Source: Pseudacidovorax intermedius
GTDB taxonomy: Bacteria; Pseudomonadota; Gammaproteobacteria; Burkholderiales; Burkholderiaceae_C
DNA: 64,000 nt
Reading direction: 5' to 3'
Assembly: GCF_003350475.1 (NCBI RefSeq)
Contig: NZ_QQAV01000016.1
Span: 1-64,000 of the forward strand
This document shows, piece by piece, positions 48,057 through 64,000 of the stretch (the stretch's first letter is position 1; the number at the start of each line of letters is the position of its first letter). Under the pieces are notes generated by a model. That model did no database searches. It had not been told where the DNA came from and saw nothing but the letters and a program-made list of their open reading frames with translations. The translations under genes were made by a program, and so were the position numbers.

Positions 48057-49937
48057 CGGCTGGTGGGGCGTCGTGCTGGGACGCCTGTCCTTCGACGCCC
48101 TGCCTTTCTACAGTGCCATCGCCACGGCCGCGGCCTCGCTCGTCGTGCTCGGTGCCCTGGGCGTCGCCGGCCTGCTCACCTGGCTGGGCCGCTGGGGCTG
48201 GCTCTGGCGCGAATGGCTCACCAGCCTGGACCACAAGAAGATCGGCATGATGTACGTGGTGCTGTCGCTGGTCATGCTGTCGCGCGGCGTGATCGAGGGC
48301 GCGCTGATGCGGGCGCAGCAGGCGGTGGCCCTGGACAGCCCCGGCTTTCTGCCGCCGGAGCATTTCGCCCAGCTCTTCTCTACGCACGGCTCGATCATGG
48401 TCTTCTTCATGGCCATGCCCTTCCTGACGGGCCTCATCAACTTCGTGCTGCCGCTGCAGCTGGGCGCGCGGGACGTGTCCTTTCCGCTGCTCAATTCGAT
48501 GTCGCTGTGGCTCACGGCGGGCGGCGCCGGGCTGATGATGGTGTCGCTGGTCCTCGGCAAGTTCTCCACCGGCGGCTGGAGCGGCTATCCGCCGTACACC
48601 GAGGCCGCGTTCAACCCGGGCGTGGGGCCGGACTACTGGATCTGGGCCGTCACGCTCGGCTCCATCGCCTCCACCATGACGGGCATCAACGTGGCGGTCA
48701 CGGTCTACAAGCGGCGCTGCCCGGGCATGACGCTGATGCGCATGCCGCTGTTCTGCTGGACGGCGTTGTGCACCGCCATCCTGATGATCTTCGCCATGCC
48801 ACCGCTCACCGTGGCCACCGGGCTGCTGGCGCTGGACCGCTACGCCGGCATGCACTTCTTCACCAACGATGCCGGCGGCAACATGATGAACTTTGCCAAT
48901 CTGTTCTGGCTGTTCGGGCATCCGGAGGTCTACATCCTCATCCTGCCGGCCTTCGGCGTGTATTCGCAGGTCATCTCCAACTTCTCGTCCAAGGTGCTCT
49001 ACGGCTACGACTCGCTGATCGCGGCCACCATGTGCATCGCCGTGCTCTCGTTCACCGTGTGGGTGCACCACTTCTTCACCATGGGCCAGAGCGCCAAGCT
49101 CAACGCCGTGTTCGGCATCGCCACCATGGCCATCGGCATTCCCACCGGCGTGAAGGTGTTCGACTGGATCCTCACCATGTTCCGCGGCCGGGTGCGCCTG
49201 TCGGTGCCCATGCTCTATGCCCTGGCCTTCATGGTGCTGTTCGTCATGGGCGGCCTCACCGGCGTGCTGCTGGCCAACCCGGCCATCGACTACCAGGTGC
49301 ACAACTCGGTGTTCCTGGTCGCGCACTTCCACAACATGCTGATCCCCGGCCTGCTCTACGGCCTGCTGGCTGCCTACACCTACTGGTTCCCCAAGGCCTT
49401 CGGCTTCCGGCTGCACGAGGGCTGGGGCCGCATCGCCTGCGGCTGATCGTCTCCGTCCGCCAGCGCGCCGCCCTGGCCGTGCCGGGCGGCGACCCCTGGA
49501 ATGCGCGCACGCTGGAGTGGTCCATTCCCTGTCCGGCGCCGCACTACAACTATGCGGTGCTGCCGGTCGTGCACGCTCGTGACGCCTTCCATGCCGCCAA
49601 GGCCGCGGACACCGCCTACCCGCTCACGCGCGATTACGAAGACATCGAGATGCCCCGCAACACCGGCACCGGCGTGGTGATGGGCGTGGCGCTGGCGGCG
49701 GCCTGCTTCGGCCTGGTCTGGTGGATGTGGTGGCTGGCCGTGGCGGGCCTCGTCGTGGCGGTCGGGGCCGTGGTCGCGCGCAGCTTTGCCACCGACACCC
49801 TGCACCGCATCCCCGCCGCCGAGGTGCGCCGGCAGGACCAGGCCTGGCTCGCCTTCGCCCGCGCATTGCCGTGCACGGGCCGCGAGGCCGAGGCGAGCCC
49901 CGCCAACCGCGGCATGGCCGAGGCGGCCGGCGTATGA
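48043..49937 (+). pseudogene. cyoB: Cytochrome bo ubiquinol oxidase subunit I, internally deleted and frameshifted
   Basis: The first 467 codons (48043-49446) hold all metal ligands: His115 in FSTHGSIMVFF, GHPEVY with the CuB His and cross-linked Tyr, VHHFFTMG, and HFHN. The frame stops at 49444 in HEGWGRIACG-stop. The normal C-terminus resumes at once in another frame: LIVSVRQR, GDPWNARTLEWSIP, YNYAVLPVVH, and terminal helices GVVMGVALAAACFGLVWWMWW, ending at 49937 with cyoC overlapping. Compared with the usual about 660 residues, roughly 60 are missing, which in E. coli CyoB are membrane helices XI-XII and the Arg pair that holds the haem propionates. Unless this is an assembly artefact the oxidase is non-functional. 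Confidence 0.85.
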
Positions 49938-50560
49938 GCGCCGCGCCGCCCAGCCGGCATCCCGGCATCAACCTCGGCCAGACCGACGCACCGGCCCATC
50001 GCGAGGCGGAAGAGACGGTCTTCGGCTTCTGGATCTTCCTGATGAGCGACCTGGTGCTGTTCGCCCTGCTCTTCGCGACCTACGCGGCCATGCTCGGCGC
50101 GACGAATGGCGGCCCCGGCCCGCGCGACGTGCTGGAGCTGCGCAGCGTCGGCGCGCAGACCGCGCTGCTGCTGCTGTCGAGCCTGAGCTTCGGCATGGCC
50201 TCCATCGCCATGAAGTACGGCGCGCCGGTGCGCCGCCTCCAGCTGTGGCTGGGGCTCACGCTGCTGCTCGGGCTGGCCTTCCTGGGCCTGTCGCTGCGCG
50301 AGTCCGCGCATCTGGCGGCAGAGGGTGCCGTGCCGCAGCACAGCGGCTGGCTGTCGTCCTTCTTCGCGCTCGTGGGCACCCATGGCCTGCACGTGGCCCT
50401 GGGGTGCTTCTGGATCGGCGTGATGATGGTGCAGGTGCGCGTGTTCGGCGTGCAGCGGCCCGTCAAGCTGCGCCTGCTGCGGCTGGGCCTTTTCTGGCAC
50501 ATGCTGGACGTGGTGTGGATCTTCCTGTTCTCGGTCGTCTACCTGGGGGGCCTGGCATGA
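49934..50560 (+). CDS. cyoC: Cytochrome bo ubiquinol oxidase subunit III
   Basis: 208 residues with five membrane helices. TVFGFWIFLMSDLVLFALLFATYA, the Glu in LRESAH, and GTHGLHVALGCFWIGVMM (with the conserved His) match CyoC/CoxC. The ATG overlaps the cyoB stop (ATGA) and its own stop overlaps the cyoD start in the same way, so cyoBCD are translationally coupled. The subunit itself looks intact. Confidence 0.92.
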   Translation: MSAAPPSRHPGINLGQTDAPAHREAEETVFGFWIFLMSDLVLFALLFATYAAMLGATNGGPGPRDVLELRSVGAQTALLLLSSLSFGMASIAMKYGAPVRRLQLWLGLTLLLGLAFLGLSLRESAHLAAEGAVPQHSGWLSSFFALVGTHGLHVALGCFWIGVMMVQVRVFGVQRPVKLRLLRLGLFWHMLDVVWIFLFSVVYLGGLA

Positions 50561-50940
50561 GCGGACACCCGTCCGATTCGGACGCCCCGCGCGACGCCGG
50601 TGAGGCCGGGCGGGCATTCGCGCAAGGCGAGGACGTGCGGCAGGAGAAGCGCCGCGAGCTGCGCGCCTACCTCAGCGGCTTCGTCATCTCGGTGCTGCTG
50701 ACCGCCCTGCCCTTCGCGCTGGTGGCCGGCGGCTGGGCCACCGGGCTGCGCGCCTATGCCGTCATCGGCGCAGCCGCGCTGGTGCAGGTGGCCGTGCACT
50801 TCCGCTTCTTCCTGCACATCGGCCTGGGCCGCTCCACGCGCGACGACCTGCAGCTGATCCTGTTCACCGCGCTGATCATCGTGCTGATGGTGGGCGGCAC
50901 GCTGTGGATCCTGGGGAATCTGCATGCGCGGATGATGTAG
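50557..50940 (+). CDS. cyoD: Cytochrome bo ubiquinol oxidase subunit IV
   Basis: 127 residues with three membrane helices: YLSGFVISVLLTALPFALVA, AYAVIGAAALVQVAVHFRFFLHI and LILFTALIIVLMVGGTLWIL. VHFRFFLHI is diagnostic for CyoD. It begins inside the cyoC stop codon. The haem O synthase gene cyoE, which usually follows, is absent; a convergent ABC receptor gene lies next. Confidence 0.92.
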   Translation: MSGHPSDSDAPRDAGEAGRAFAQGEDVRQEKRRELRAYLSGFVISVLLTALPFALVAGGWATGLRAYAVIGAAALVQVAVHFRFFLHIGLGRSTRDDLQLILFTALIIVLMVGGTLWILGNLHARMM

Positions 50941-51030
50941 CCGGACCGGCGGCGTGGCCGCCGTGAGTCCGCTGGCTCTTCCGCTGGGGTTGGCGGCTCT
51001 CCTCCTCGAGCCGGCGAGCAGCCGGCGCCC

Positions 51031-52605
51031 CTACTCCTTCCACGCCGTCCAGGCCAGCGGGCGGCCAGAAGCCCACGGCTGATAACCGCGAACGGACCGC
51101 CCCACCGCTTCGACCGTCGGTGCGTAGAACAGGCCGATGATGGGTACCTCGACGCGCATCTGCGCGTGCATGCGACGGAAGATGGCGGCCCGGGCGTCCT
51201 GGTCGGTGATGGACGAGCTCTCTTCCAGCAACTCGCGAGCGCTCTGGCTGCCCCACTGGGCCCACTTGGCCGTGGCCTTGTCTGCAACGAACGCCGCATA
51301 CATCAGGCTCGGGTCGAAACGCGGCGAGAACGCAAAGGAGGACAGCTGAAAGCGGCCATTGACATAGTTGTCGAGCTGCGCAGACCAGTCCAGCACCTCG
51401 AGCTGCACATTGAGCCCGACGGCGCTGAGCATCGCCTGGATCATCACGGCGCTGTCGTACATGCCCACCGTGCGCTTGTTGGTCTGCAGCTTGATCACCT
51501 CGCCCTTGTAGCCCGCCTTGCGGATCAATGCCGCGGCGGCGGCGGGGTCGTACTTGGGCCATTCGAGGAATTCCGGCGAGAACGCCCGCATGCTCTCTGC
51601 GACGCCCGAAGGGTTGGGCTTGGCCAGGCCGTTGCTGCGCACGGCGGTGAGCTGCGCCAGATCGATGCCGTGGGCAATGGCCTGCCGGAGGTTCTGGTTC
51701 TTCAGCAGCGGATCGTCGGTCTGGATCAGCAGCGCCGACCAGGTCAGGCCAGGCGCCGTCATCACCTTGACACCAGCGGCCTTGAGCTCCGCCATCTTGC
51801 TCGAGTCGAGATCCGGAACGATGTCCACGGCACCGGTCTTCACCGCTGCCGAAGCCGCATCGGCATCGGGGATCACCTGGAAGCGCACGGCATCCACATA
51901 GGCGATGCGGGCCCCCGAATAGCCGCTGGCGGGCTCCCTGGAGGGAACATAGCCTTCATAACGGCTCAGGCTCAAGGCATCGCCGCGCTTCCAGGTGCCC
52001 ATCTTGAATGGCCCGGTCCCGATCGGCGTCCAGCTGCCATCGGCACCTGCACTCGCCGGGCTGGCGACCAGCACGCCGCACTGCACATTGGCCAGTTGCG
52101 TGAGGAACAGCCCGGAAGGCTTCGCCAGTCTGAAAACGACGGTCGATGGATCGGGGGTCTCGACCGCCTCGACCTTGAGGCCCGCCTGGCCATTGAAGAA
52201 GCGGGCGCACAGCCAGTTCGCCTGGGACATCTTGCGCTCCCAGCTCCACTTCACGGCCGCCGAGCTCAGCTTCTCGCCGTTGTGGAAGCTCACGCCTTCA
52301 CGCAGCTTGAAGGTGTAGCTCAGGCCGTCCGGCGAGATCGACCAACTGCTCGCCAGCGCCGGCCCCACGCTCAGATCGGTCCGATAGCCGACCAGGCCTT
52401 CGAAGAGGTGATTCACCACGATGTCCGAATTGGAGTCGCGATTGATACCGGGCTCCAGGCTGCGCGGATCGGCATTGACGGCGATGACCAAGGTACCGCC
52501 CCGCTTCGGGGCATCCGCCGCCCGGGCCGCAGCGGGCGCGAGCGCGACCCACACGCTGGCGGCGAGCAGCACGCAGCGAAGCCCGATCGAGATGGGTGAT
52601 TTCAT
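51031..52605 (-). CDS. ABC transporter substrate-binding protein, oligopeptide/dipeptide type
   Basis: 524 residues of the SBP_bac_5 family. A Sec signal peptide (LRCVLLAASVWVALAPAAARA) directs it to the periplasm. Typical blocks: KRGGTLVIAVNADPRSLEP, ASSWSISPDGLSYTFKLREGVSFHNGE, GTGPFKMGTWKRGD and LRQAIAHGIDLAQL. It delivers a ligand to the permeases and ATPase at 58770-62235, which are encoded beyond the GntR regulator on the other strand. It is the third gene of the minus-strand operon (amidase, hydrolase, receptor). The ligand is unknown but presumably an amide or acylated amine. ATG at 52605. Confidence 0.93.
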   Translation of the reverse strand: MKSPISIGLRCVLLAASVWVALAPAAARAADAPKRGGTLVIAVNADPRSLEPGINRDSNSDIVVNHLFEGLVGYRTDLSVGPALASSWSISPDGLSYTFKLREGVSFHNGEKLSSAAVKWSWERKMSQANWLCARFFNGQAGLKVEAVETPDPSTVVFRLAKPSGLFLTQLANVQCGVLVASPASAGADGSWTPIGTGPFKMGTWKRGDALSLSRYEGYVPSREPASGYSGARIAYVDAVRFQVIPDADAASAAVKTGAVDIVPDLDSSKMAELKAAGVKVMTAPGLTWSALLIQTDDPLLKNQNLRQAIAHGIDLAQLTAVRSNGLAKPNPSGVAESMRAFSPEFLEWPKYDPAAAAALIRKAGYKGEVIKLQTNKRTVGMYDSAVMIQAMLSAVGLNVQLEVLDWSAQLDNYVNGRFQLSSFAFSPRFDPSLMYAAFVADKATAKWAQWGSQSARELLEESSSITDQDARAAIFRRMHAQMRVEVPIIGLFYAPTVEAVGRSVRGYQPWASGRPLAWTAWKE

Positions 52606-52690
52606 GGTGTCCGTGTTCCTATGGTGGGGTGGGGATGGGCACAGGCAACGCACCTGTGGAAGAGAGCAACAGGAGGCGTCAGCCGGGCAG

Positions 52691-53551
52691 TCACCCGTCC
52701 GACGGGGGCGATCCGAGACAGCTGGCGAAGAAGGCCTTCACCGACGGCAGCAATGGCTTCTGCTGGTGATCCGCACCGGCCACGATGTCGTGGCGGACCT
52801 CGACGCCCTGCGTCTGCAGACTCGTCTTCAGCGCCACCATGCGTTCGAGTCGGTTGTGGCCGTGGGTATCGAACGCCGGCTGCCACCACGGGTGATGCGG
52901 CGAGAGCGCGATCTCCCAGGTCTCGGTGTCCTCGCCACCGACGACCATATGGACCGCGACTTTGCGGATGGCGTCCAGATCGAGGGGCCTGCCGAAGATT
53001 CGCTCGAAGTCGCCCACGCCCGCCAGCCAGGGGGTCTGTGCATCCAGAAGCGTCACGATGCCCGGGGCACCGATGGACACCGCGGCCAGCCGCTGCGGAT
53101 GGGCATAGAGAAAGCGATGGGCAAAGTGCCCGCCGCCCGAAAAGCCGAAGAGATGGAAACGCCGTGCGTCGAGCCGGTAGATGCGGGACACCTCCTCGAT
53201 CATCGACAGCAGGACCAGGTCGTACGCAGGCCCTTCACCGCTCGCACCACGCAGCCGCTTGTAGCTCGACAGCTCGCGCGGCGAGGTGATGCCGGCAGGA
53301 AAAAGCGGCGCCAGCACCAGGAGCCGGTGGCGTTCGGCCAGGTCGATGAAGTCGTCCCTGCAGGCGCCGTTGTCGCGGCGGGTGCCATGCACCACCACCA
53401 GCAGGCGCAGGCGCTCCGTGCCGCGCTCGTCATAGCTTTCGGGCACGTAGGCGCAGTACGAGAAGCGCGGGTCGGCGGCGCAGACCTGGACGGCCGTGCG
53501 GCCGATGTCGTAGTAGGACAGCTGGGCGCCGTGCCCGGTTCGCTTGTGCAT
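52691..53551 (-). CDS. Alpha/beta hydrolase (PHB-depolymerase/esterase-like)
   Basis: 286 residues. The oxyanion loop is VVVHGTRRDNGACRDDF, the nucleophile elbow GFSGGG places Ser138, and GGEDTETW and GADHQQKP supply candidate acid and His residues. The layout resembles the intracellular PHB depolymerase/feruloyl esterase group without a signal peptide, so it acts in the cytosol on a small ester or amide. It lies 26 bp after the amidase and 85 bp before the ABC receptor on the same strand. The substrate is unknown. Confidence 0.87.
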   Translation of the reverse strand: MHKRTGHGAQLSYYDIGRTAVQVCAADPRFSYCAYVPESYDERGTERLRLLVVVHGTRRDNGACRDDFIDLAERHRLLVLAPLFPAGITSPRELSSYKRLRGASGEGPAYDLVLLSMIEEVSRIYRLDARRFHLFGFSGGGHFAHRFLYAHPQRLAAVSIGAPGIVTLLDAQTPWLAGVGDFERIFGRPLDLDAIRKVAVHMVVGGEDTETWEIALSPHHPWWQPAFDTHGHNRLERMVALKTSLQTQGVEVRHDIVAGADHQQKPLLPSVKAFFASCLGSPPSDG

Positions 53552-53577
53552 GGTGCAAGGCCTCTCTCTGGGGCAGC

Positions 53578-55065
53578 TCAGCGCGGATCGATGGGGCACA
53601 GCCGCGGCATGGCCGCTTCGATCACGAAGCCGGCGGCAAAGCACAGGTCTTCGCGCCCCGGGGCGGCCACCAGCTGCACACCGGTGGGCAGGTCGATGCG
53701 GCCGTGCACGGCATCGACACCCGCCAGTCCGGTGGGCACCGACAGCGCGGGCAGGCCCAGCACCGAGATCGCCAGCAGCGGGGCCTGTGCACGCATGACC
53801 TGTGCCGCCATGGCGGGCGACTCCACATCCGCCAGTCGGGCAAAGGGCGGCTGCAGCGAAGTCGGCATCACGATCACCGGCCATTCGGCCAGAAAGCGCT
53901 GCCATTGCCGCAGCAGGCCATGCCGTCGAGCGACCGCGGCAAGGCCATCGGCGGCCGTGAACTCTCCGAGCGCCTGGCGCCAGTACGCGACCGCCGTCAC
54001 GATGTTCGGATCGCCCGCCGCAGGAAGCACGGGATCCAGCGCACCCATGAGATCCGGGATGGTGATGGCGGCCCACATCCGGTGGAGTTCATCCAGGCCG
54101 GGCGGCACCGCCTCCACCACGTCCCAGCCGGCGGCGGCCAGCGCCTGCGCCGCCTGTTCCACCGCGCGAACCGCGGTGGGATGGCAGTCGGGCCAGGCGC
54201 TGCGCGCGAGCACTGCGGCCCGGCGTGGTGCGGGGTGGAGCGGCGCAGGCATCGACCCTGTGCGGGGATCGTCGATATGCGGCACCGCCATCGCGGCGAA
54301 TGCCAGCTCCACGTCCCGCACGGTCCGCGCGATGGGCCCCTGCACCGCCATCAGTTGAGACGCCACGGAGCCCGCTCCCTTGGCCGTGGCGTTGAACGAA
54401 GGCACGCGCCCGTACGAGGGCCGCAGGCCCACCAGGCCATTGCAGAAGGCGGGATAGCGCACCGAGCCGCCGATGTCGTTGCCATGGGCGATGGGAACCA
54501 TGCCGCTGGACACGGACGCCGCGGCGCCACCCGAGGAGCCGCCCACCGTGTATTCGCGGTGCCAGGGGTTGTAGGTGGCGCCATGCAGCGTGTTGTCGGT
54601 GAACCAGCGCATCGAGTACACCGGCGCATTGGTGCGGCCCACGACAATGGCCCCCGCTGCGCGCAGGTTGGCAACCACGGGGTTGTCGGCGGCAGCGACC
54701 AGGTCCTGATAGAGCGCCGTGCCGTTGTCGGTGGGATGCCCCCGCTGATCGATGTTGATCTTCACCGTCACCGGCACCCCATGCAGGGCCCCCAATGGCT
54801 GCCCGTCGGCCGCTGCGCGGTCCGCGAGTTCGGCCGCCCGCCGCGCCTCGTCGTCCATCCGCCGGACCACGGCGTTCACCGCCGGATTCACCTCTTCGAT
54901 GCGCGCCAACGCGGCCTCCACCAGCGCCGCAGCGGTCAGCTCCCGTTTGGCCACCCGGGCTGCCATGGTGGCAGCATCGAGCCTGTGAAGCGCCTCCGAC
55001 GGGGCCGCCTCCGATCGATGGACAGGCGACGAGGAGGTAGAGCGGGCAAGGGGCCGATCGGACAT
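53578..55065 (-). CDS. Amidase-signature family amidase
   Basis: 495 residues, full length. Lys102 in PVTVKINID, the GGSSGGAAA block (175-183) with the cis-Ser, and nucleophile Ser201 in DIGGSVRYPA form the Ser-cisSer-Lys triad. It hydrolyses a carboxamide, releasing ammonia or an amine. It is the first gene of the minus-strand operon, divergent from the GntR regulator, with a 49-bp gap holding the regulator's likely operator at its right edge. Together with the C45 enzyme and aminotransferase it suggests catabolism of an amide-linked amino compound. Confidence 0.93.
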   Translation of the reverse strand: MSDRPLARSTSSSPVHRSEAAPSEALHRLDAATMAARVAKRELTAAALVEAALARIEEVNPAVNAVVRRMDDEARRAAELADRAAADGQPLGALHGVPVTVKINIDQRGHPTDNGTALYQDLVAAADNPVVANLRAAGAIVVGRTNAPVYSMRWFTDNTLHGATYNPWHREYTVGGSSGGAAASVSSGMVPIAHGNDIGGSVRYPAFCNGLVGLRPSYGRVPSFNATAKGAGSVASQLMAVQGPIARTVRDVELAFAAMAVPHIDDPRTGSMPAPLHPAPRRAAVLARSAWPDCHPTAVRAVEQAAQALAAAGWDVVEAVPPGLDELHRMWAAITIPDLMGALDPVLPAAGDPNIVTAVAYWRQALGEFTAADGLAAVARRHGLLRQWQRFLAEWPVIVMPTSLQPPFARLADVESPAMAAQVMRAQAPLLAISVLGLPALSVPTGLAGVDAVHGRIDLPTGVQLVAAPGREDLCFAAGFVIEAAMPRLCPIDPR

Positions 55066-55112
55066 GGTGCGGTTCCGGGTAGTCAGCGAAGACTGGATTG
55101 TTTTTTGAGACT

Positions 55113-55128
55113 ATATGATGCAGCATAA
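55113..55128 (+). promoter_or_regulatory. Operator candidate at the GntR start, copy 1
   Basis: ATATGATGCAGCATAA overlaps the possible ATG codons of the GntR gene and is nearly palindromic (TATG-ATGCAG-CATA, all but one base pair). On the opposite strand of 56053-56068 the same motif occurs with 12 of 16 matches (core TGATGCA). Two copies placed before the regulator and before the aminotransferase fit an autoregulated repressor. Confidence 0.5.
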
Positions 55129-56032
55129 GGATATGCAAGAAATCGTTGCCGATTCCGCTGGCCCCTCGCGCCTCCAGCGCGATCTGCTGCCTCGCACGCT
55201 GGAGTACATCCGCACCTCCGGATTGCGCGTGGGCGACCGCCTGACCGAAATGGCGCTGGCCAGCCACCTGCAGGTTTCGCGCACCCCGGTGCGCGCCGTG
55301 CTCGAGGAGCTTGCGCGCAGGGGCGTGCTCGACAACGAGCCCCGGCGCGGCTTCAGTGTGCGCACGCTGCCCGAACTCGACGCACCCTCCGCCACCCCGC
55401 CGAACGAGATCGACCAGCTTTGTCTGCGCATCGCCGGTGACCGCCATGGTGGACGCCTGCCGGCCGAGGTTTCAGAAGCCGACCTGATGCGCCGGTACGG
55501 CGTGAGCAGACCGCTGCTGCTGCGCGTGCTCGGCCAGCTGTCGGAAATCGGCATGGCCGAGCGCAAACCGGGCCACGGCTGGGCCTTTCTTCCCATCCTG
55601 GACGGAGAGGCCCGCCGGGAAAGCTACGAGTTCCGCCTGCTGATCGAACCGGCCTGCGTCATCGCCGCCGGCTTCCGGCTCGACGCGGGCTGGGTCGAGG
55701 AAATGCGTCGGCAGCACAAGAACTTCCTGGAGGCGCCCTGGAGCGAGACGTCCAGCATCGCCCTGTTCGAGATGAATGCCGCCTTCCATGAAGGCCTGGC
55801 CCAGGCCTCCGGCAACCGCTTCATCCTGAATGCCATCCGGCAGCAGAGCCGCATGCGCCGTTTCTCGAACTACGACTGGGCCTATGGCCAGGACCGCGTG
55901 CGCGTTTCCTGCCTCGAGCACCTGGAAATCCTCGATCGACTGGAACTCGATCAGCGCGAAGTGGCGGCCGCACTCATCCGTCGACATCTGGAGCAGGCGT
56001 CGGTCCTGACGCGCGCTCAGCAGGACCCGTGA
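55115..56032 (+). CDS. GntR-family regulator with two winged-helix domains and an FCD-like domain
   Basis: 305 residues. The first winged helix is RLTEMALASHLQVSRTPVRAVLEELARRGVL (about 42-72), a normal GntR reader. A second helix-turn-helix-like stretch follows at about 96-155 (EADLMRRYGVSRPLLLRVLGQLSEIGMAERK, then GWAFLP), before a C-terminal helical FCD-type domain (YEFRLLIEPACVIAAGFRL, FHEGLAQASGN, HLEILDRLE). A single GntR winged helix is usual, so two is noteworthy. Starts at 55115, 55118 or 55133 are possible; AAGG lies just before 55133. It likely controls both divergent operons of the amide cluster. Confidence 0.88.
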   Translation: MMQHKDMQEIVADSAGPSRLQRDLLPRTLEYIRTSGLRVGDRLTEMALASHLQVSRTPVRAVLEELARRGVLDNEPRRGFSVRTLPELDAPSATPPNEIDQLCLRIAGDRHGGRLPAEVSEADLMRRYGVSRPLLLRVLGQLSEIGMAERKPGHGWAFLPILDGEARRESYEFRLLIEPACVIAAGFRLDAGWVEEMRRQHKNFLEAPWSETSSIALFEMNAAFHEGLAQASGNRFILNAIRQQSRMRRFSNYDWAYGQDRVRVSCLEHLEILDRLELDQREVAAALIRRHLEQASVLTRAQQDP

Positions 56033-56052
56033 ATCAGGTCTTGCGCATTGTT

Positions 56053-56068
56053 TTATATTGCATCAAAA
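56053..56068 (-). promoter_or_regulatory. Operator candidate before the aminotransferase, copy 2
   Basis: Read on the minus strand this is TTTTGATGCAATATAA, matching the site at 55113-55128 in TGATGCA and ATAA. It lies 28-43 bases before the aminotransferase start in the only AT-rich part of the 63-bp gap, where a promoter for the long downstream operon would be. Confidence 0.5.
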
Positions 56069-56095
56069 TTCATTTGAGCACTATGGAGCAAACGG

Positions 56096-57451
56096 ATGCG
56101 CCCTGACCCCCTGAACCCCGACAACGCTGGCCTCGCCGGTTCTGCGAACGACAGCCTCCAGCCCTACTGGATGCCGTTCACCGCCAACCGGCTGTTCAAG
56201 TCGAAGCCACGCATGTTCGTGGCCGCCGAAGGCATGCATTACGTCACCGACGACGGGCGCCGCATCCTGGATGCCATGGCGGGCCTGTGGTGCGTGAATG
56301 CCGGCCACAACCCGCCGCGGATCGTGCGCGCGATCCAGGAACAGGCGGCGCGACTGGATTTCGTGTCCTCGTTCCAGATGGGCCACCCGCTGGCCTTCCA
56401 GCTGGCCGAGCGCATCGCCGAACTGGCGCCTGCGGGGCTCGATCGGGTCTTCTTCACCAACTCGGGCTCCGAGGCCGTGGACACCGCGCTCAAGATTGCC
56501 CGGGCGTACCACAAGGTTCGAGGCGATGCGAACCGCATCAAGCTGATCGGCCGCGCCAAGGCGTATCACGGGATGGGCTTCGGCGGACTGTCCGTGGCCG
56601 GCATCCCGCGCCACCGTCGCGATTTCGGCCCTCTGCTGGGGGACGTGGACCACCTGCCTCATACGCACGACCTCACGCACAACGCCTTTTCGCGTGGGCA
56701 GCCCGCGTGGGGCGCCCATCTGGCCGACGAGCTGGAGGCCATCGTGCAGATCCACGACGCGTCGACCATCGCCGCAGTCATCGTCGAGCCCGTCACGGGC
56801 TCGGGCGGCGTCCTGCCGCCGCCGGTGGGCTATCTGGAGCGGCTGCGCGAGCTGTGCACCCGCTACGGCATCCTGCTGATCTTCGACGAGGTCATCTCGG
56901 GCTTCGGCCGCCTGGGGGCACCTTTCGGTTCGACGGCGCTGGGTGTCACGCCCGACCTGATCACCTGCGCCAAGGGCATGACCAACGGCGCCGTCCCCAT
57001 GGGCGGCGTGATCGCCTCCAGCGCGGTGTACGACGCTTTCATGGCAGCCCCGGAGGCGGCCGTCGAGCTGATGCACGGCTACACCTATTCCGGCCATCCC
57101 CTGGCCTGCGCTGCGGGCCTGGCGGCGATCGACACCTACGAACAGGAAGGCCTGTTCGCCCGTGGACCGCAGATCAGCGCGACCTGGGAAGCCGCCGTGC
57201 ACCAGCTCAAGGGCGCGCCGCACGTGCGCGACATCCGCAATATCGGCGTGCTGGCCGCCATCGAGCTCACACCGCGGGAGGGGGCACCGGGCGCCCGCGC
57301 GGCAGAGGCCGTGGAGCACTGCTTCGCTGCCGGCGTGCTGGTCCGGGTGGCGGGCGACAACCTGGTGCTGTCTCCGCCGCTGACCATCTCGCCCGACCAG
57401 ATGACCCAGGTCGTCGAGACCATCGACGCTGCGCTGCGAACGGTCGCCTGA
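56096..57451 (+). CDS. Class III (omega) aminotransferase, beta-alanine:pyruvate type
   Basis: 451 residues. The N-terminal WMPFTANRLFKSKPRMFVAAEGMHY, the PLP-contacting Asp264 in IFDEVISGFGR and PLP Lys293 in CAKGMTNGAVPMGG are diagnostic for omega-amino acid:pyruvate aminotransferases. It removes an amino group from a terminal amine or beta-amino acid to give a semialdehyde, which the aldehyde dehydrogenase at the end of the operon can oxidise. GGAG lies eight bases before the ATG, and the regulator's second operator copy lies just upstream. Confidence 0.93.
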   Translation: MRPDPLNPDNAGLAGSANDSLQPYWMPFTANRLFKSKPRMFVAAEGMHYVTDDGRRILDAMAGLWCVNAGHNPPRIVRAIQEQAARLDFVSSFQMGHPLAFQLAERIAELAPAGLDRVFFTNSGSEAVDTALKIARAYHKVRGDANRIKLIGRAKAYHGMGFGGLSVAGIPRHRRDFGPLLGDVDHLPHTHDLTHNAFSRGQPAWGAHLADELEAIVQIHDASTIAAVIVEPVTGSGGVLPPPVGYLERLRELCTRYGILLIFDEVISGFGRLGAPFGSTALGVTPDLITCAKGMTNGAVPMGGVIASSAVYDAFMAAPEAAVELMHGYTYSGHPLACAAGLAAIDTYEQEGLFARGPQISATWEAAVHQLKGAPHVRDIRNIGVLAAIELTPREGAPGARAAEAVEHCFAAGVLVRVAGDNLVLSPPLTISPDQMTQVVETIDAALRTVA

Positions 57452-57538
57452 CACCCCGTGTGCCCCCACCGCGCGCCGCCCGCCCCGGGTGGCGCGCGGC
57501 CTGCTCCTGCATTCAACGCCTGTCGGCGACATTCATCC

Positions 57539-58693
57539 ATGGACAACCTTGCCCCCTTTCCCTTCGTGTCGGTCAGCGGCACGGCTTATGAGCGCGGACG
57601 CGCCTATGGCGCTGCCGTGCCCGATCGGGTGGCGCGCAGTGCCCAGATCTATGGCCGGGCGCTGGACGGACTCGGCGCCGGCGAGGCCTTCCGCCGGCAG
57701 CTGACCACCGAGTTCGCCGCGCGCATCGAAGCCTACGGCAGCCACTATCTCGAGGAGATGCGCGGCATCGCCGACGGCGCGGGCGTCTCGCTCGGGGACG
57801 TGGTGATGATCAACGCCCGCACCGAAGTGGTGGCCCAGGCCCGGCGACAGGCGGGGGCCGGTGGCGCGACCGCCACGCCGCCCGAACCCGAGGAGGGCTG
57901 CACGGGCGCCGTGGTCCTGGCCGGGCGCAGCAGCAACGGGCGCCTGCTTCACGGCCAGAACTGGGACTGGCGCTCGGAATGCATCGAGACCGGCATCGTG
58001 CTGCGCGTCCAGCGGGAAGACGGGCCCGACATCCTGACCTTCGTGGAGGCCGGCGGGCTGGCGCGCTCCGGGCTCAACAGCGCAGGCATCGCCTTGACGG
58101 CCAACTACCTGGAGTGCGAACGGGACTTCCGCACGACCGGCGTGCCGCTCTCGCTGCTGCGCCGCAAGATCCTGGAACAGCAGCACTTCGCCGAGGCGAT
58201 GGGCGCGGTGGTGAACACGCCGAAGTCCTGCGCCAACAATCTGATGATGAGCACCGCGGAAGGCTTTGCCATCGACTTCGAATGCGCACCCGACGAGGTC
58301 TTCAGCGTGCTCCCCGAGGACGACCTGCTGGTGCACGCCAACCACTGGGTCAGCACGGCGGCACGCAGCAAGCTCAGGGACACGGGCGTCGCCAACATGC
58401 CCGACAGCTACTACCGGGACTGGCGCGTCAAGCGTCTGCTGGTCGAGGCCGGCCCTTCTCTCGACCTGGACGACCTCAAGCAGGCCTTCTTCGACGACTT
58501 CGCCACGCCCTTCGCCGTATGCCGGCCGCCCCGGCCGTCGTCCCTCGCGGGCAACCTCTCGGCCACGGTCGCCATGATCGCGATGGAACCGGCCGGCGGC
58601 TTCATGGACGTGCTGCCCCTGCCGGCCCTGCAGCGAGGCTTCACCCGCTATTCGCTGACCGAGCAGCCACAGCCGGTGGCGGAACCCGCCTGA
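57539..58693 (+). CDS. C45-family N-terminal-nucleophile acylase (acyl-CoA:6-APA acyltransferase-like)
   Basis: 384 residues. EEGC at 118-121 followed by TGAVV is the self-cleavage site of the C45 family, where Cys121 becomes the N-terminal nucleophile after the propeptide is cut. The rest shows GQNWDWRSE, GLNSAGIALTANYL and DFECAPDEVFSVL, typical of acyltransferase/acylase members related to the fungal penicillin acyltransferase and bacterial N-acyl hydrolases. It probably hydrolyses an N-acyl bond. It follows the aminotransferase by 87 bp and precedes the permeases. Confidence 0.88.
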   Translation: MDNLAPFPFVSVSGTAYERGRAYGAAVPDRVARSAQIYGRALDGLGAGEAFRRQLTTEFAARIEAYGSHYLEEMRGIADGAGVSLGDVVMINARTEVVAQARRQAGAGGATATPPEPEEGCTGAVVLAGRSSNGRLLHGQNWDWRSECIETGIVLRVQREDGPDILTFVEAGGLARSGLNSAGIALTANYLECERDFRTTGVPLSLLRRKILEQQHFAEAMGAVVNTPKSCANNLMMSTAEGFAIDFECAPDEVFSVLPEDDLLVHANHWVSTAARSKLRDTGVANMPDSYYRDWRVKRLLVEAGPSLDLDDLKQAFFDDFATPFAVCRPPRPSSLAGNLSATVAMIAMEPAGGFMDVLPLPALQRGFTRYSLTEQPQPVAEPA

Positions 58694-58769
58694 GGCTGCG
58701 CGCGCCGCCCTGTCCGTACGTCACGACCGATCATTTCCAGCCACCGACCACAGGCAGCACGGGACCCCG

Positions 58770-59714
58770 ATGGGACGCTTCATCCTCACACGCATCACCA
58801 TGGGAGTGCCCACGCTGCTGATCGTCGCAGCCACGGTGTTCTTCCTGATCCGGCTCATTCCGGGCGACCCCGCCACCCTGATGCTCGGCGACATGGCCAC
58901 CCCCGACATGGTGGCGGCGGTGCACCGCGACCTGGGGCTGGATCGCCCCCTGCCCGTGCAGTTCGTGCGGTGGCTGGGCCAGGTCCTCAGCGGCGATCTG
59001 GGCCGCTCGATCTCGACCGGCCAGGCCGTGGCACCGCTGGTGCTCGAGCGCTTTGCCGTCAGCGGCACCATCGTCGCGGTGGCGGTGGCCCTTGCGACGC
59101 TGATCGCCGTTCCGGCCGGCATGGTGGCGGCCTGGCACCAGAACAGCGCGCTGGATCTGGGGCTGGTCGCCATTGCCACCTTGCTGCTGTCGGTTCCCAC
59201 CTTCTGGCTGGGCCTGCTGCTGCTGATGCTGTTCGGCCTGCACCTGGGATGGCTGCCGGTGGTCGGCTATGTGGGCCTGTCCGAAAACCTGCGCGCGGGC
59301 CTGCTCTACCTGGCGCTGCCCGTCATGACCCTGGTCCTGCACGAGATCGGGGTCATCATCCGGATGGCGCGCGCGAGCATGCTGGAGGTTCAGCGCCTCG
59401 ACTACATCGTCCACGCGCGCGCCAAAGGCCTGTCGGAGCGTGCGGTGCTCTGGCGCCATGCGTTCAAGAACGCATTCGCGCCCACCTGGACATTGATCGG
59501 CCTGATCCTGGGCAATCTGCTCGGCGGCATCGCCGTCGTCGAGACCGTGTTCACCATTCCCGGCCTGGGCCGCCTGCTGGTGGATGCCATCTTTGCCCGC
59601 GACTATCCGGTGGTGCAGGGCTGCATGCTGTTCATCGCGGCGGTCTATGTGCTGGTCAACATGGTCATCGACCTGTGCTACCCGGCGTTCGACCCGCGCG
59701 TCACGCTGGACTGA
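58770..59714 (+). CDS. ABC transporter permease, DppB type
   Basis: 314 residues. MGRFILTRITMGVPTLLIVAATVFFLIRLIPGDPA is the hallmark N-terminus of the DppB/OppB permeases. Six membrane helices follow, and YIVHARAKGLSERAVLWRHAFKNA is the cytosolic EAA loop that docks on the ATPase. It lies in the inner membrane and pairs with the next permease, the ATPase and the receptor at 51031. ATG at 58770. Confidence 0.94.
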   Translation: MGRFILTRITMGVPTLLIVAATVFFLIRLIPGDPATLMLGDMATPDMVAAVHRDLGLDRPLPVQFVRWLGQVLSGDLGRSISTGQAVAPLVLERFAVSGTIVAVAVALATLIAVPAGMVAAWHQNSALDLGLVAIATLLLSVPTFWLGLLLLMLFGLHLGWLPVVGYVGLSENLRAGLLYLALPVMTLVLHEIGVIIRMARASMLEVQRLDYIVHARAKGLSERAVLWRHAFKNAFAPTWTLIGLILGNLLGGIAVVETVFTIPGLGRLLVDAIFARDYPVVQGCMLFIAAVYVLVNMVIDLCYPAFDPRVTLD

Positions 59715-59725
59715 GGAACTCGCCG

Positions 59726-60547
59726 ATGACCTTCCGTTCAATGCGCGGGCTGATCGGCCTGCTGCTCACCGGCGCCATGGCGCTGATCGCCTGCGTGGCA
59801 CAGGTATGGACACCGCGCAGCCCGCTCGCGCTCGACCTGCTGCACCGATTCACCGCCCCAGGAAGCCCCGCCTTCCCGCTCGGCACCGACGAATTCGGGC
59901 GCGACGTGCTCAGCCGCCTGATGGCGGGGGCAGCCTCCAGCATGGGCATCGCACTCATGACGGTCATGTTCGCCGTGCTCATCGGCGGCGTGGTCGGCAT
60001 CCTGTCCGGTTACTTCCGCGGCTGGGTCGACCGCGTCGTGATGACCTTCAACGATGCGCTGCTGGCGTTCCCGGGCATCCTCCTGGCACTGGGACTGCTG
60101 GTGGTACTGGGCAGCGGCCGCAGCGGCATCGTGCTGGCGCTGGGCCTGGCCTATGTGCCGTCGGTGGTGCGCGTGGTGCGCGGCGCCACCCTGTCGCTGC
60201 GTGAGAACGCGTTCATCGAAGCCTCGCGCGTCATGGGCCACAGCGAGCTCTACATCATGGGACGCCACGTGCTGCCCAACTGCGTCGCACCACTGACCGT
60301 GCTTGGGACCTCGATGTTCGGCTGGGTGCTGCTGTCCGAAAGCGCCCTCTCCTTCCTGGGGCTGGGCCCGCCGCCCCCGGCGCCCAGCTGGGGCAACATG
60401 CTGGCCGGCGGCCGCGCGTTCATGGCACAGGCCCCCTGGCTCGGCATCCTGCCCGGACTGTGCATCTCGCTCACCTTGCTGGGCATCAACCTCCTGGGCG
60501 ACGCCTTGCGCGATCGGCTCGATCCGCGCATGAGGAACATGGCATGA
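59726..60547 (+). CDS. ABC transporter permease, DppC type
   Basis: 273 residues. FPLGTDEFGRDVLSRLMAGAASSMGIAL is the DppC signature and ENAFIEASRVMGHSELYIMGRHVLPN the EAA loop. It starts 11 bp after the DppB-type gene with GAGGAA upstream, and its stop overlaps the ATPase start (ATGA). It forms the second half of the membrane channel. Confidence 0.94.
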   Translation: MTFRSMRGLIGLLLTGAMALIACVAQVWTPRSPLALDLLHRFTAPGSPAFPLGTDEFGRDVLSRLMAGAASSMGIALMTVMFAVLIGGVVGILSGYFRGWVDRVVMTFNDALLAFPGILLALGLLVVLGSGRSGIVLALGLAYVPSVVRVVRGATLSLRENAFIEASRVMGHSELYIMGRHVLPNCVAPLTVLGTSMFGWVLLSESALSFLGLGPPPPAPSWGNMLAGGRAFMAQAPWLGILPGLCISLTLLGINLLGDALRDRLDPRMRNMA

Positions 60548-62235
60548 CGACCGTTCCCCCTCCTCTGCTCGACGTGCGCGGACTCTGCCTGGGCGTCGGC
60601 GACGCCGGCCGGCTGGTGGTCGATCGCGCGAGCTTCCAGGTCCGCGCCGGCGAGATCGTGGCCGTGGTCGGCGAGAGCGGCAGCGGCAAGACGCTCGCGG
60701 CGCGCGCCGTTCTCGGACTCACGCCGCCCGCCATCCGCGTGCGCGGCGGCGCCATCCACATCGAGGGCCGCGATCTGACCGCGCTCAAGCCGGCAGAGCT
60801 GCGGGCCCTTCGAGGCCGCCGCATCGGCATGGTGTTCCAGGAGCCCATGACGTCGCTGAACCCGGCGCTCAGCGTCGGCCGCCAACTGGAGGAGGCGCTG
60901 GCACTGCACACGCCGCTCGACGCCCAGGAGCGCCGGGCCGCCATCATCGCGATGCTGCAGCGGGTGGGCCTGGCCGACCCGGACCGGGTACTGCGCGCCT
61001 GGCCGCACGAGTTCTCCGGCGGCATGCGCCAACGCATCATGCTGGCCTCCGTGATGCTGCCGCGCCCTGCACTGCTGGTGGCGGACGAGCCCACCACGGC
61101 GCTCGATGCGGTGGTGCAGCGGGATGTCCTGGAGCTGATGGTCTCGCTGACCGCAGAGAGCGGCACGGCCGTGCTCATGATCAGCCATGACCTGGCGATG
61201 GTCGCGCGCTACTCGCACCGTGTCATCGTGATGTGCCGGGGCGAGATCGTCGAACAGGGGCCGACCGAGCAGATCCTGCGGGCGCCGGCGCATCCGTACA
61301 CACGTCAGCTGCTCGGCGCGATGCCGCGGCGCCGCGACGTGCCCGCCGTCGCCCCCCAGGATGCGCCGCTGGTCGAAGTCCGCCAGCTGGTGGTCGATTT
61401 CCCGGCGCGGGGTGGACTGCTGCGAAGGGGCCAGCCGCAGCGGGCGCTCCACGGCATCGACCTGGCTCTGCGCCCGCGCGAGGTGGTGGCGGTGGTGGGC
61501 GGCTCGGGCTCCGGCAAGACCACGCTCGGACGCGTCATCGCCCATCTGCAGAAGCCCAGCAGCGGCGAGTTGCTTTTCGATGGCCAAGCCGTGCGCGGCA
61601 GCTCTGGCGCCACCTGGGCCGCCTACCGCCGCGACTGCCAGATGGTGTTCCAGGATCCCTATGCCTCGCTGGACCCGCGGATGACCGTCGCGCAGAGCAT
61701 CGGCGAAGCGCTGCGCGGCACCGGCCTGAACCGCGAGACGGCTGCCGCACGCGTGCGCGAGGCGATCGAGGAAGTGGGGCTGGACGCCGGGCACGCATCG
61801 CGCTATCCCCATGAACTGTCGGGCGGACAGCGGCAGCGCGTCGCCATCGCCCGCGCGGTCGTGCGGCGGCCGCGGCTGGTGGTCGCCGACGAACCGGTCT
61901 CGGCCCTCGACACGACGGTGCGTGCGCAGATCCTGGACCTGTTCGCCGAGCTGCAGCACCGCCACGGCTTCGCCTGCCTGTTCATCAGCCACGACCTGGC
62001 CGTGGTCGAGCAACTGGCCAACCGGGTGGTGGTGATGAACCAGGGCCGGATCGTGGAAGAAGGACCGCGCGATCAGGTCTTCGACCGGCCCGCCCACCCC
62101 TACACCCGCCGTCTGCTGCAGGCCATCCCGGCCCTGGAGCCCACGCCCGACGGAGGCGTGCGCCTGCGCTGGCGGCACGCCGATGACACGCCCGCGCCGG
62201 CCGCATCCGGCGGCGCGTGCCGCCCTGCGGACTGA
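60544..62235 (+). CDS. Fused dipeptide-type ABC transporter ATPase (DppD-DppF type)
   Basis: 563 residues, two ABC domains in one chain. Domain one: Walker A GESGSGKT (43-50), signature FSGGMRQRI, Walker B LLVADEPTTALD, followed by AHPYTRQLLGAMP. Domain two: GGSGSGKTT (about 319-327), LSGGQRQRV, LVVADEPVSALD and AHPYTRRLLQAIP. Fusion removes the need for separate DppD and DppF genes. It energises import by the two permeases. Its start overlaps the permease stop by four bases. Confidence 0.95.
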   Translation: MTTVPPPLLDVRGLCLGVGDAGRLVVDRASFQVRAGEIVAVVGESGSGKTLAARAVLGLTPPAIRVRGGAIHIEGRDLTALKPAELRALRGRRIGMVFQEPMTSLNPALSVGRQLEEALALHTPLDAQERRAAIIAMLQRVGLADPDRVLRAWPHEFSGGMRQRIMLASVMLPRPALLVADEPTTALDAVVQRDVLELMVSLTAESGTAVLMISHDLAMVARYSHRVIVMCRGEIVEQGPTEQILRAPAHPYTRQLLGAMPRRRDVPAVAPQDAPLVEVRQLVVDFPARGGLLRRGQPQRALHGIDLALRPREVVAVVGGSGSGKTTLGRVIAHLQKPSSGELLFDGQAVRGSSGATWAAYRRDCQMVFQDPYASLDPRMTVAQSIGEALRGTGLNRETAAARVREAIEEVGLDAGHASRYPHELSGGQRQRVAIARAVVRRPRLVVADEPVSALDTTVRAQILDLFAELQHRHGFACLFISHDLAVVEQLANRVVVMNQGRIVEEGPRDQVFDRPAHPYTRRLLQAIPALEPTPDGGVRLRWRHADDTPAPAASGGACRPAD

Positions 62236-62277
62236 CCCGCTCCCGTTCTTGCCGCCTCGCGCACCGACGAACCTGCC

Positions 62278-63735
62278 ATGACCTCTTCCCCCACGACGGA
62301 CTATCCCGACACCCTCCTCCACATCGATGGCGCCTGGAGCGCCGGCGCGGCCGGTCTTGACGCGCCGGTCCTGAACCCCGCCACCGGGGCGGAGATCGGG
62401 CGGGTTGCGCACGCGACGACGGCGGATCTCGACCTCGCCGTGGAGGTCAGCCACCGCGCCTTCCAGCACTGGCGCCGCGTCTCGGCCTTCGAGCGCTCCA
62501 GGCTCATGCGGCAGGCCGCCCAGCTCATGCGCGAGCGCGCCGACGCCACCGCCCGCCTGCTGACCCAGGAGCAGGGCAAGCCGCTGGCGGAGGCGCGCGC
62601 AGAAGCCCTGGGTTCGGCCGACGTCATCGACTGGTTCGCCGAGGAGGCGCGCCGCACCTATGGCCGGATCGTGCCTGCGCGGGCGCCTGGCCACATGCAG
62701 CTGGTGACGCGCGAACCTGTCGGGCCGGTCGCGGCGTTCGGCCCGTGGAATTTCCCGATCAACCAGGTGGTGCGCAAGATCGCACCGGCGCTGGCGGCAG
62801 GCTGCACCATCATCGTCAAGGGTCCCGAGGAAACGCCGGCGAGCTGCGCTGCCCTGGTGAAGGCCTTTGCCGATGCAGGCATCCCGCCCGGTGTGATCCA
62901 GCTCGTGTACGGGAGGCCTGCCGACATCTCGGCGCACCTGGTGCCGCATCCGCTGATCCGCAAGATCTCGTTCACGGGTTCGACTGCCGTCGGCAAGCAG
63001 CTGGCGGCGCTGGCTGGGCTGCACATGAAGCGCGCCACGATGGAACTGGGCGGCCACGCCCCCGCCATTGTCTTCAGCGACGCCGATCCTGCGCGGGCTG
63101 CCCGTGCGCTGGCGGCGCAAAAGTTCCGCAATGCGGGCCAGGTCTGCATCTCCCCCACACGCCTCCTGGTGCATGAGGATCTCGCCGACGCCTTCGTCGA
63201 GCACTTCGTCGCCGCTGCGGCCGCCATCCGCGTCGGCAATGGCCTGGAAGCCGGGGTCCAGATGGGCCCGTTGGCCCACGCGCGCCGCGTGGAGGCGATG
63301 CAGGCGCTGGTGGCGGACGCCGTCGATCAGGGCGCACGCGTGCGGACAGGCGGCAGCCGCATCGGCACGTCGGGCTTCTTCTTTGCACCGACCGTGCTGA
63401 CGGACGTGCCGCTGTCCGCCCGCCTGATGAACGAAGAGCCCTTCGGCCCCGTGGCGCCGATCAGCACCTTCCGCGACTATGACGCGCTGATCGCCGAGGC
63501 CAATCGCCTCCCCTGGGGCCTGGCCGCCTATGCCTATACGTCCTCGGCCGGCACGGCGGCGGCCGTCTCCGCCGATATCGAGTCCGGCATGGTCTCGATC
63601 AACCAGGCGCCGCTGGGCCTGCCAGAGGTGCCCTTCGGTGGCATCAAGGACTCGGGACACGGATCGGAAGGCGGCACCGAAGCGATGGAAGCCTGGCTGG
63701 TCACCAAGCTGACGTCGCACAACACCGCGTTCTGA
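62278..63735 (+). CDS. NAD(P)-dependent aldehyde dehydrogenase, succinate-semialdehyde type
   Basis: 485 residues. [22 protein letters not shown] holds the oxyanion Asn158, MELGGHAP gives catalytic Glu256 and NAGQVCISP nucleophile Cys290. The nearest functional groups are succinate-, glutarate- and aliphatic-semialdehyde dehydrogenases. At the end of the amide operon it would oxidise the semialdehyde left by the omega-aminotransferase to a dicarboxylate or a half-amide. It lies 42 bp after the ATPase. Chain length is unknown. Confidence 0.94.
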
Positions 63736-63786
63736 GACAGGCACGCGAGACAGGCACGGCCGGCTGCTCGCGCAGCCCGCCGGGAT

Positions 63787-64000
63787 TCAGCGGCGTTGCA
63801 GATGGACGCCCAAGCGATCCACCACCTGCGCGAAAGCGGTCGCCGCACCCGCCGAAAGGCCGGCGTACCCCGGGAAGTTGTGGATCATGTCCGACAGCTG
63901 CACATGCTCTACCACGCCGCCGGCGCCGGCCAGCCGCTGCGCCATGGCATCGCCCTGGTCGCGCAGCGGGTCGTAGCCCGCCGTCACGACGACCACCGGA
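63787..64000 (-). CDS. Alpha/beta hydrolase (hormone-sensitive-lipase-like esterase), 5' part outside window
   Basis: Only the last 71 codons are in the window. VVVTAGYDPLRDQGDAMAQRLAGAG carries the catalytic Asp in the HSL-family DPLRD motif, and LSDMIHNFPGYAGL the catalytic His. The start and nucleophile lie beyond position 64000. It converges on the aldehyde dehydrogenase and may or may not belong to the amide cluster. Confidence 0.85.
   Translation of the reverse strand, partial: PVVVVTAGYDPLRDQGDAMAQRLAGAGGVVEHVQLSDMIHNFPGYAGLSAGAATAFAQVVDRLGVHLQRR

Follow-up and report, generated by a model that had tools for sequence, protein, structure and literature searches.

The nylon-oligomer genes NylA to NylE encode an amidase of the amidase-signature (AS) type, an aminotransferase and a dehydrogenase. 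Most known C45 enzymes come from penicillin biosynthesis, from insect pigment or from a small number of biosynthetic clusters. In this work we analysed a 64,000-nucleotide stretch of Pseudacidovorax intermedius DNA (contig NZ_QQAV01000016.1, positions 1 to 64,000; hereafter, the window), from a genome of 5.98 Mb. At 51031-63735 it carries a cassette of ten genes for a dipeptide-type ATP-binding cassette (ABC) importer, a GntR regulator, an AS amidase, an alpha/beta hydrolase, a C45 N-acyl amide hydrolase, an omega-aminotransferase and a semialdehyde dehydrogenase. We consider it highly probable that the ten genes form a single unit, if the substrate is left unnamed, and probable that this is a substrate-induced catabolic unit for an amide-linked compound. 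Ectoine catabolism, in the passages of the cited report, likewise joins an importer, ring hydrolysis (EutD/EutE), deacetylation and subsequent conversion by Ssd and Atf (by name a dehydrogenase and an aminotransferase) to a local regulator (PMC8739950). These clusters differ from the cassette in the EutD/EutE hydrolases themselves, a tripartite ATP-independent periplasmic (TRAP) importer and a MocR/GabR regulator, and the same passages mention no C45 enzyme or AS amidase. The caprolactam pathway of Pseudomonas jessenii, as far as the cited sections describe it, also employs an omega-aminotransferase and then a proposed dehydrogenase resembling succinate-semialdehyde dehydrogenase (SSADH). It differs in having a hydantoin-utilization-like ATP-dependent lactamase, CsiD/LhgO/CsiR neighbours and an importer suggested only by induced binding proteins (PMC6061476). 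By analogy, the logic of the cassette may be that of ectoine or caprolactam breakdown with other hydrolases.

Breakdown of a synthetic polyamide or lactam (6-aminohexanoate oligomers or caprolactam) would follow the analogy drawn in an original prediction, made from the window letters by themselves, and it has in common with the cassette an outline of amide cleavage, omega-transamination and semialdehyde oxidation. We nevertheless regard it as very improbable. Pfam matched no hydantoin-utilization-like family, to which the subunits of the described caprolactamase belong, in any of the ten cassette proteins, so that we rejected membership in the caprolactam pathway; nor did it match the families that we take as those of NylB and NylC. 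The cassette amidase is closer to several other AS proteins (8xac, E 1.3e-49) than to the 6-aminohexanoate cyclic-dimer hydrolase (3a2p, 3.8e-39), and we rejected membership in the nylon pathway too. Its aminotransferase scores 466 bits against 4b98, a beta-alanine:pyruvate transaminase and its best match in the PDB, vs. 241 bits against 6g4b, which we take to be the P. jessenii 6-aminohexanoate aminotransferase, and its three nearest solved relatives are all beta-alanine/omega-amino acid:pyruvate transaminases. The predicted likeness to nylon degradation thus stands for the outline of the steps and falls for the aminotransferase, of the beta-alanine group, and for the amidase, which has closer AS relatives than the cyclic-dimer hydrolase. 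As for the gamma-glutamylputrescine (Puu) pathway, Puu-like genes join C45, importer and amidase genes in an apparent operon at two other loci (L131 and L132), whereas the ten window proteins include no Puu-type synthetase or oxidase (Pfam), and matches to the L131 synthetase in the P. intermedius genome reach 31–32% at best. On the features tested, the sequences argue against membership of the cassette in the nylon, caprolactam or Puu pathways. No description of the ten-gene set was found in the open-access literature (PubMed Central, PMC) among the matches listed, in agreement with the predicted lack of fit to any named pathway.

The set was compared with other genomes, as the prediction had proposed, by tblastn of the ten window proteins against fetched loci, the genes of unannotated stretches being called by a crude GC-frame script. 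All ten genes occurred in identical order in three relatives, so that three genera and two classes were counted: Pseudacidovorax sp. NFM-22 (L006; 97–100% amino acid identity), Variovorax ginsengisoli (L003; 69–86%) and the alphaproteobacterium Tistrella mobilis (L092; 71–84%), where the cassette lies on plasmid pTM1 with toxin-antitoxin genes on either side. Since the ten genes keep their order in these three relatives, the arrangement is not due to chance. The copy on the Tistrella plasmid, from another class, resembles the window cassette almost as closely as does that of Variovorax, which suggests that the set was transferred whole between bacteria and that the unit is mobile. Six genes, from the aminotransferase to the dehydrogenase, run to the contig end in another genome of the genus (G177; L149 and L002, probably one stretch), and a further genome of the genus, G071, gave no C45 protein match. 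A plasmid of Pseudoroseomonas cervicalis (L096) holds nine of the ten genes in rearranged order, with no dehydrogenase match within the 21 kb fetched. The hydrolase set varies as well: Ensifer adhaerens (L105) and Rhizobium etli (L103) keep the C45 gene, importer, receptor, GntR regulator, aminotransferase (61% and 56% identity, respectively) and dehydrogenase (61% and 62%), and their stretches gave no match to the window amidase or alpha/beta hydrolase. In the vicinity of the R. etli locus we found an AbgB-like amidohydrolase, an annotated polyhydroxybutyrate (PHB)-type esterase and two proteins of the deacetylase family that match PuuE weakly.

Pfam and NCBIfam profile scans of the ten proteins upheld the predicted genes, coordinates and families, the single GntR regulator between two divergent operons and every component of the dipeptide-type importer. 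Genes within each operon are spaced by -4 to 82 bp, and 49 bp (55066-55114) separate the two operons. The reverse strand encodes the periplasmic receptor (51031-52608; SBP_bac_5, PF00496, 257 bits), the alpha/beta hydrolase (52691-53530) and the amidase (53578-55065). The forward strand encodes the regulator (55115-56032), the aminotransferase (56096-57451), the C45 enzyme (57530-58693), permease B (58770-59714; PF00528 and PF19300), permease C (59720-60547; PF00528), an ATPase with two fused nucleotide-binding domains (60544-62235; ABC_tran, PF00005, and oligo_HPY, each in two stretches) and the dehydrogenase (62278-63735). A family-5 receptor, two permeases and two nucleotide-binding domains place the importer in the Opp/Dpp type. 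The receptor's nearest solved relatives by sequence are HbpA (6ofq), AgaA (6hlx) and YliB (1uqw), and its residues, compared in five alignments, gave no clear pointer to the substrate. To the predicted gene list the scans added that the regulator carries two GntR winged-helix matches (PF00392 in two stretches) ahead of its FCD domain (PF07729).

The enzymes retain the expected catalytic residues, whose roles in the amidase, dehydrogenase and alpha/beta hydrolase are known from those families. Ser-cisSer-Lys is the catalytic set of AS hydrolases, and in the cassette amidase (PF01425, 303 bits; NF005687, 530 bits, cut-off 428) Lys102, Ser177/178 and Ser201 are conserved in four distinct homologues. 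The alpha/beta hydrolase is a weak match to the PHB-depolymerase-esterase type (Esterase_PHB, PF10503, 24.2 bits, cut-off 23), with LpqC (3d0k) and poly(aspartic acid) hydrolase-1 as weak PDB relatives; Ser131 (in GFSGGG) and His255 are conserved in at least 95% of 50 distinct homologues, and no obvious signal peptide was seen by eye. The C45 protein (NF040521, 279 bits, cut-off 85) aligns with isopenicillin-N acyltransferase (2x1d, E 2.8e-24), its Gly123-Cys124 falling on the Gly-Cys self-cleavage site of that enzyme, and self-cleavage is accordingly predicted between these two residues. Gly123, Cys124 and Asn144-Trp-Asp146 are conserved in at least 95% of 132 distinct homologues. The aminotransferase (class III, Aminotran_3) scores above the cut-off of the AptA model (NF052567, 683 bits, cut-off 500) and has an arginine at the position of the 'flipping' arginine found in beta-alanine:pyruvate transaminases, the role of which has been described (PMC4907197). 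The dehydrogenase (Aldedh, PF00171, 524 bits), with Cys290 and Glu256 conserved in at least 95% of nine distinct homologues, reaches 482 bits against the SSADH model TIGR01780, under its cut-off of 646, and is SSADH-like only.

The gap between the amidase and regulator genes holds an operator-like element, TTGTTTTTTG (55098-55107), the sole exact match to TTGTWTTWTG in the window, with 0.01 expected for a motif chosen after inspection of these same sequences. In the Variovorax and Tistrella copies TTGTATTTTG occupies the equivalent position, and TTGTWTTTTG is present both in this gap and in that between the regulator and the aminotransferase; the Tistrella locus has it once elsewhere. A promoter element shared in this way offers a lead to co-regulation of the two operons. 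That the motif was picked from these sequences weighs against such a reading, as do several further points. The window and the NFM-22 locus carry TTGTWTTTTG in the amidase-regulator gap only; the second gap of the window has TTGTTTTATA, two mismatches off. With one mismatch allowed, there is still one site in the window vs. 0.46 expected, and a scan of 14 other loci found no TTGTWTTTTG. Apart from this, the pattern T.GT..AC.A, which we take to represent a FadR/VanR-like operator, is absent from the forward strand of 51000-63800. The predicted single pathway is thus supported as one regulator, importer and catabolic unit, conserved in three genera and apparently co-transferred, and by an element common to both gaps in Variovorax and Tistrella and found in one of two in the window.

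How common this arrangement is can be judged from its C45 gene. Counting the P. intermedius genome itself, C45 matches at E ≤ 1e-60 were present in 11 of 399 genomes of its order and 9 of 398 genomes of a phylum sample. A further family, searched at E ≤ 1e-80, gave matches in 21 of 297 genomes, the rhizobial stretches L018, L020 and L105 included. Within its own family, at E ≤ 0.001, they were confined to three of 200 genomes: its own, G177 (92%) and G087 (31%). We sampled 43 C45 loci by homology (12–20 kb each; the order and phylum supplied 18 and the further family 25, the P. intermedius copy being excluded) with identity thresholds of at least 55% for the permease, 28% for the amidase, 33% for a class-III aminotransferase and 55% for its AptA type. 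An importer permease accompanied C45 at 33 of these loci, together with a receptor (29 loci), a long GntR regulator (27), an alpha/beta hydrolase (20), a class-III aminotransferase (8), an amidase (6) and an aldehyde dehydrogenase (5). The ten loci without an importer included no amidase, one aminotransferase and one dehydrogenase. Permease genes were also seen at 30 of 80 named loci ranked by homology (none at the other 50), nine of the 30 having an AptA-type aminotransferase, three a dehydrogenase and two an amidase. On plasmids, 15 C45 loci were fetched out of 56 matching records; 13 had a permease, of which seven carried an aminotransferase, three a dehydrogenase and two an amidase. The core is therefore C45, importer and receptor, usually with GntR and often with an alpha/beta hydrolase, the other genes being add-ons in a minority of loci; it occurs also in Pseudomonas, Polaromonas, Bosea, rhizobia and others, and the window represents its fullest form among the loci seen. 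A conjugative plasmid of Klebsiella pneumoniae (L095, 8246-16074) carries a GntR regulator, an alpha/beta hydrolase, C45, a receptor, two permeases and an ATPase next to an IS110 transposase.

These counts bear on a rather unlikely alternative, in which the core serves general scavenging of peptides or N-acyl amino acids or detoxification of antibiotic amides, and the aminotransferase and dehydrogenase are part of an independent route for omega-amino acids that has only the regulator in common with it. Most C45-importer loci, at the thresholds used, have no aminotransferase (25 of 33), dehydrogenase (28 of 33) or amidase (27 of 33), which favours the alternative and weighs against a single pathway. 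Also against a single pathway, none of six plasmid stretches with aminotransferase relatives of 57–62% (L107-L112) gave a C45 match. The presence of the core on the conjugative Klebsiella plasmid fits scavenging or detoxification as well, and the named fungal C45 enzyme, isopenicillin-N acyltransferase, works in penicillin biosynthesis. Against it, the ten genes remain together across classes, and an aminotransferase adjoins the core above chance: the probability of a class-III enzyme at 8 of 33 loci is about 2e-5 and of the AptA type, to which five of the eight belong, about 3e-6, taking the 11 class-III matches of the window genome (fragments counted) as density and ignoring shared ancestry. 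The remaining three are nearest to a polyamine-type query from L131. Such enrichment is as expected if amide cleavage frees a primary amine.

For the single catabolic unit, the most likely substrate class is, as a tentative first choice, a conjugated (N-acyl) polyamine or a similar omega-amino amide. The guess comes from several observations. Two genomes of one genus (loci L131 and L132) carry C45, importer, receptor and amidase genes on one strand with polyamine-catabolism-like genes, in an apparent operon. One encodes a glutamine-synthetase-family synthetase, which scores 206 bits against gamma-glutamylputrescine synthetase (cut-off 650). A second encodes an aminotransferase that has putrescine and polyamine transaminases among its closest solved relatives, and a third an FAD oxidoreductase (DAO family, amine-oxidase-like). 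L132 alone adds a dehydrogenase resembling PuuC (642 bits against a cut-off of 850). In L131, gabT- and gabD-like genes follow on the opposite strand. Among the matches listed, only two of these proteins pass an NCBIfam cut-off: the aminotransferase, for a broad subfamily model, and the gabT-like protein, for TIGR00700. At six Acetobacteraceae-type loci (Roseomonas, Falsiroseomonas and others) a different FAD oxidoreductase adjoins the aminotransferase, in five lying between it and the GntR gene; the nearest model for the L061 copy is L-pipecolate oxidase, far under the cut-off. AzsT and isopenicillin-N acyltransferase are C45 enzymes like that of the window, but both act in biosynthesis (AzsT in that of azaserine) and not in catabolism. 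AzsT, from bacteria, takes a succinyl group off an amide according to the cited passage (PMC10445470), and the omega-transaminase KES23458 of a beta-alanine pathway accepts diamines as well as alpha-, beta- and omega-amino acids (PMC4907197).

Other findings weigh against a polyamine. The link comes from two genomes of one genus in a family where 3 of 28 genomes have C45, and the third of these (L136) matched a dehydrogenase (51%) and none of the other polyamine queries. Agmatinase, beside the Klebsiella core, and nspC, beside C45 in Chelatococcus (L100), were considered as conserved neighbours and rejected, since none of the other loci available at that point gave a match. The window aminotransferase is nearest to beta-alanine and not to polyamine transaminases, which keeps beta-alanine conjugates, including pantothenate, as the main rival. 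In that case a beta-alanyl amide would be imported (in a special case pantothenate or a pantetheine fragment), the amidase or the C45 enzyme would free beta-alanine, and the AptA-type enzyme would convert it to malonate semialdehyde. We judge this unlikely, though a serious contender. The score of the aminotransferase above the AptA equivalog cut-off and its three nearest solved relatives agree with such a role; insect Tan, a beta-alanyl-amine hydrolase, is counted among C45 relatives; and C45-importer loci are present in Pseudomonas. To our knowledge, however, pantothenate would be an unusual substrate for an Opp-type importer. The best model for the dehydrogenase is SSADH, the coenzyme A (CoA)-acylating (methyl)malonate-semialdehyde model not being in the best 25 of 42 models. 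A second, close homologue of the aminotransferase in the host genome (50%; C8:146818-148113, at 8816-10249 of L089) could handle beta-alanine and is perhaps the housekeeping enzyme for it; by eye, a LysR-like gene lies next to it. A pantothenase activity in P. fluorescens, the protein for which was unidentified as of 2023 in the passage cited, is a further point in favour of beta-alanine conjugates (PMC10393543).

Taking the cassette as one catabolic unit, we infer the following course. The Opp/Dpp-type importer would take up an amide-linked small molecule, and the cytoplasmic hydrolases (the N-terminal nucleophile (Ntn)-type C45 acylase, the AS amidase and the alpha/beta hydrolase) would cleave amide or ester bonds to yield a primary-amine compound. 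The AptA-type aminotransferase might then transfer the amine to pyruvate, giving a semialdehyde that the SSADH-like dehydrogenase would oxidise to an acid for central metabolism, with the GntR/FCD protein repressing both divergent operons until an intermediate binds. More tentatively still, this may be a hitherto undescribed mobile catabolic system with the C45 Ntn-hydrolase as its conserved enzyme, feeding conjugated polyamines or other omega-amino amides into omega-transamination, and an orphan activity, for instance a pantothenase or an acyl-polyamine hydrolase, may be found among its hydrolases. These results point to a recurrent catabolic role for C45 enzymes and to a testable substrate class. 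The set is compact and seems to cross classes on plasmids, its core already residing on a conjugative Klebsiella plasmid. Identifying the substrate would account for a nutrient (or detoxification) trait that is currently annotated as peptide transport and a C45 peptidase.

Several C45 loci showed other settings. A second C45 gene stands alongside the cluster in L018 (16221-17471) and L101 (17240-18325). In L037 (8836-9997) and similar loci of Reyranella-like alphaproteobacteria, a C45 relative lies near two small genes resembling the alpha and beta subunits of sulfopyruvate/phosphonopyruvate decarboxylase; among the loci clustered, alpha-like genes were seen in 30 and beta-like genes in 25. 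These Reyranella-type C45 relatives have about 48–52% identity, and their setting differs from the importer cluster. C45 relatives in L014, L029, L103, L134, L135 and L200 are near paired polysaccharide-deacetylase-family genes, the R. etli copies of which gave the weak matches to the allantoinase PuuE, and such loci are possibly an imide- or amide-hydrolase variant of the theme. In Microvirga lotononidis (L106, 7139-9900) a dehydrogenase of another subfamily, 40% identical to the PuuC-like query from L132, directly adjoins an AptA-type aminotransferase on the same strand.

Scanning the window for Rfam families and tRNAs gave no matches. By Pfam, the cassette is flanked on the right by a convergent Abhydrolase_3 esterase and on the left by terminal-oxidase genes, and its boundaries seem to be set by these neighbours. 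The left-hand genes, COX2 and COX1, occupy 47013-50940. The subunit-I reading frame (47881-49446) ends at position 383 of 436 of Pfam COX1, and a subunit-I-like tail can be read by eye in a different frame (48063-49937), so that this terminal-oxidase gene looks broken or rearranged.

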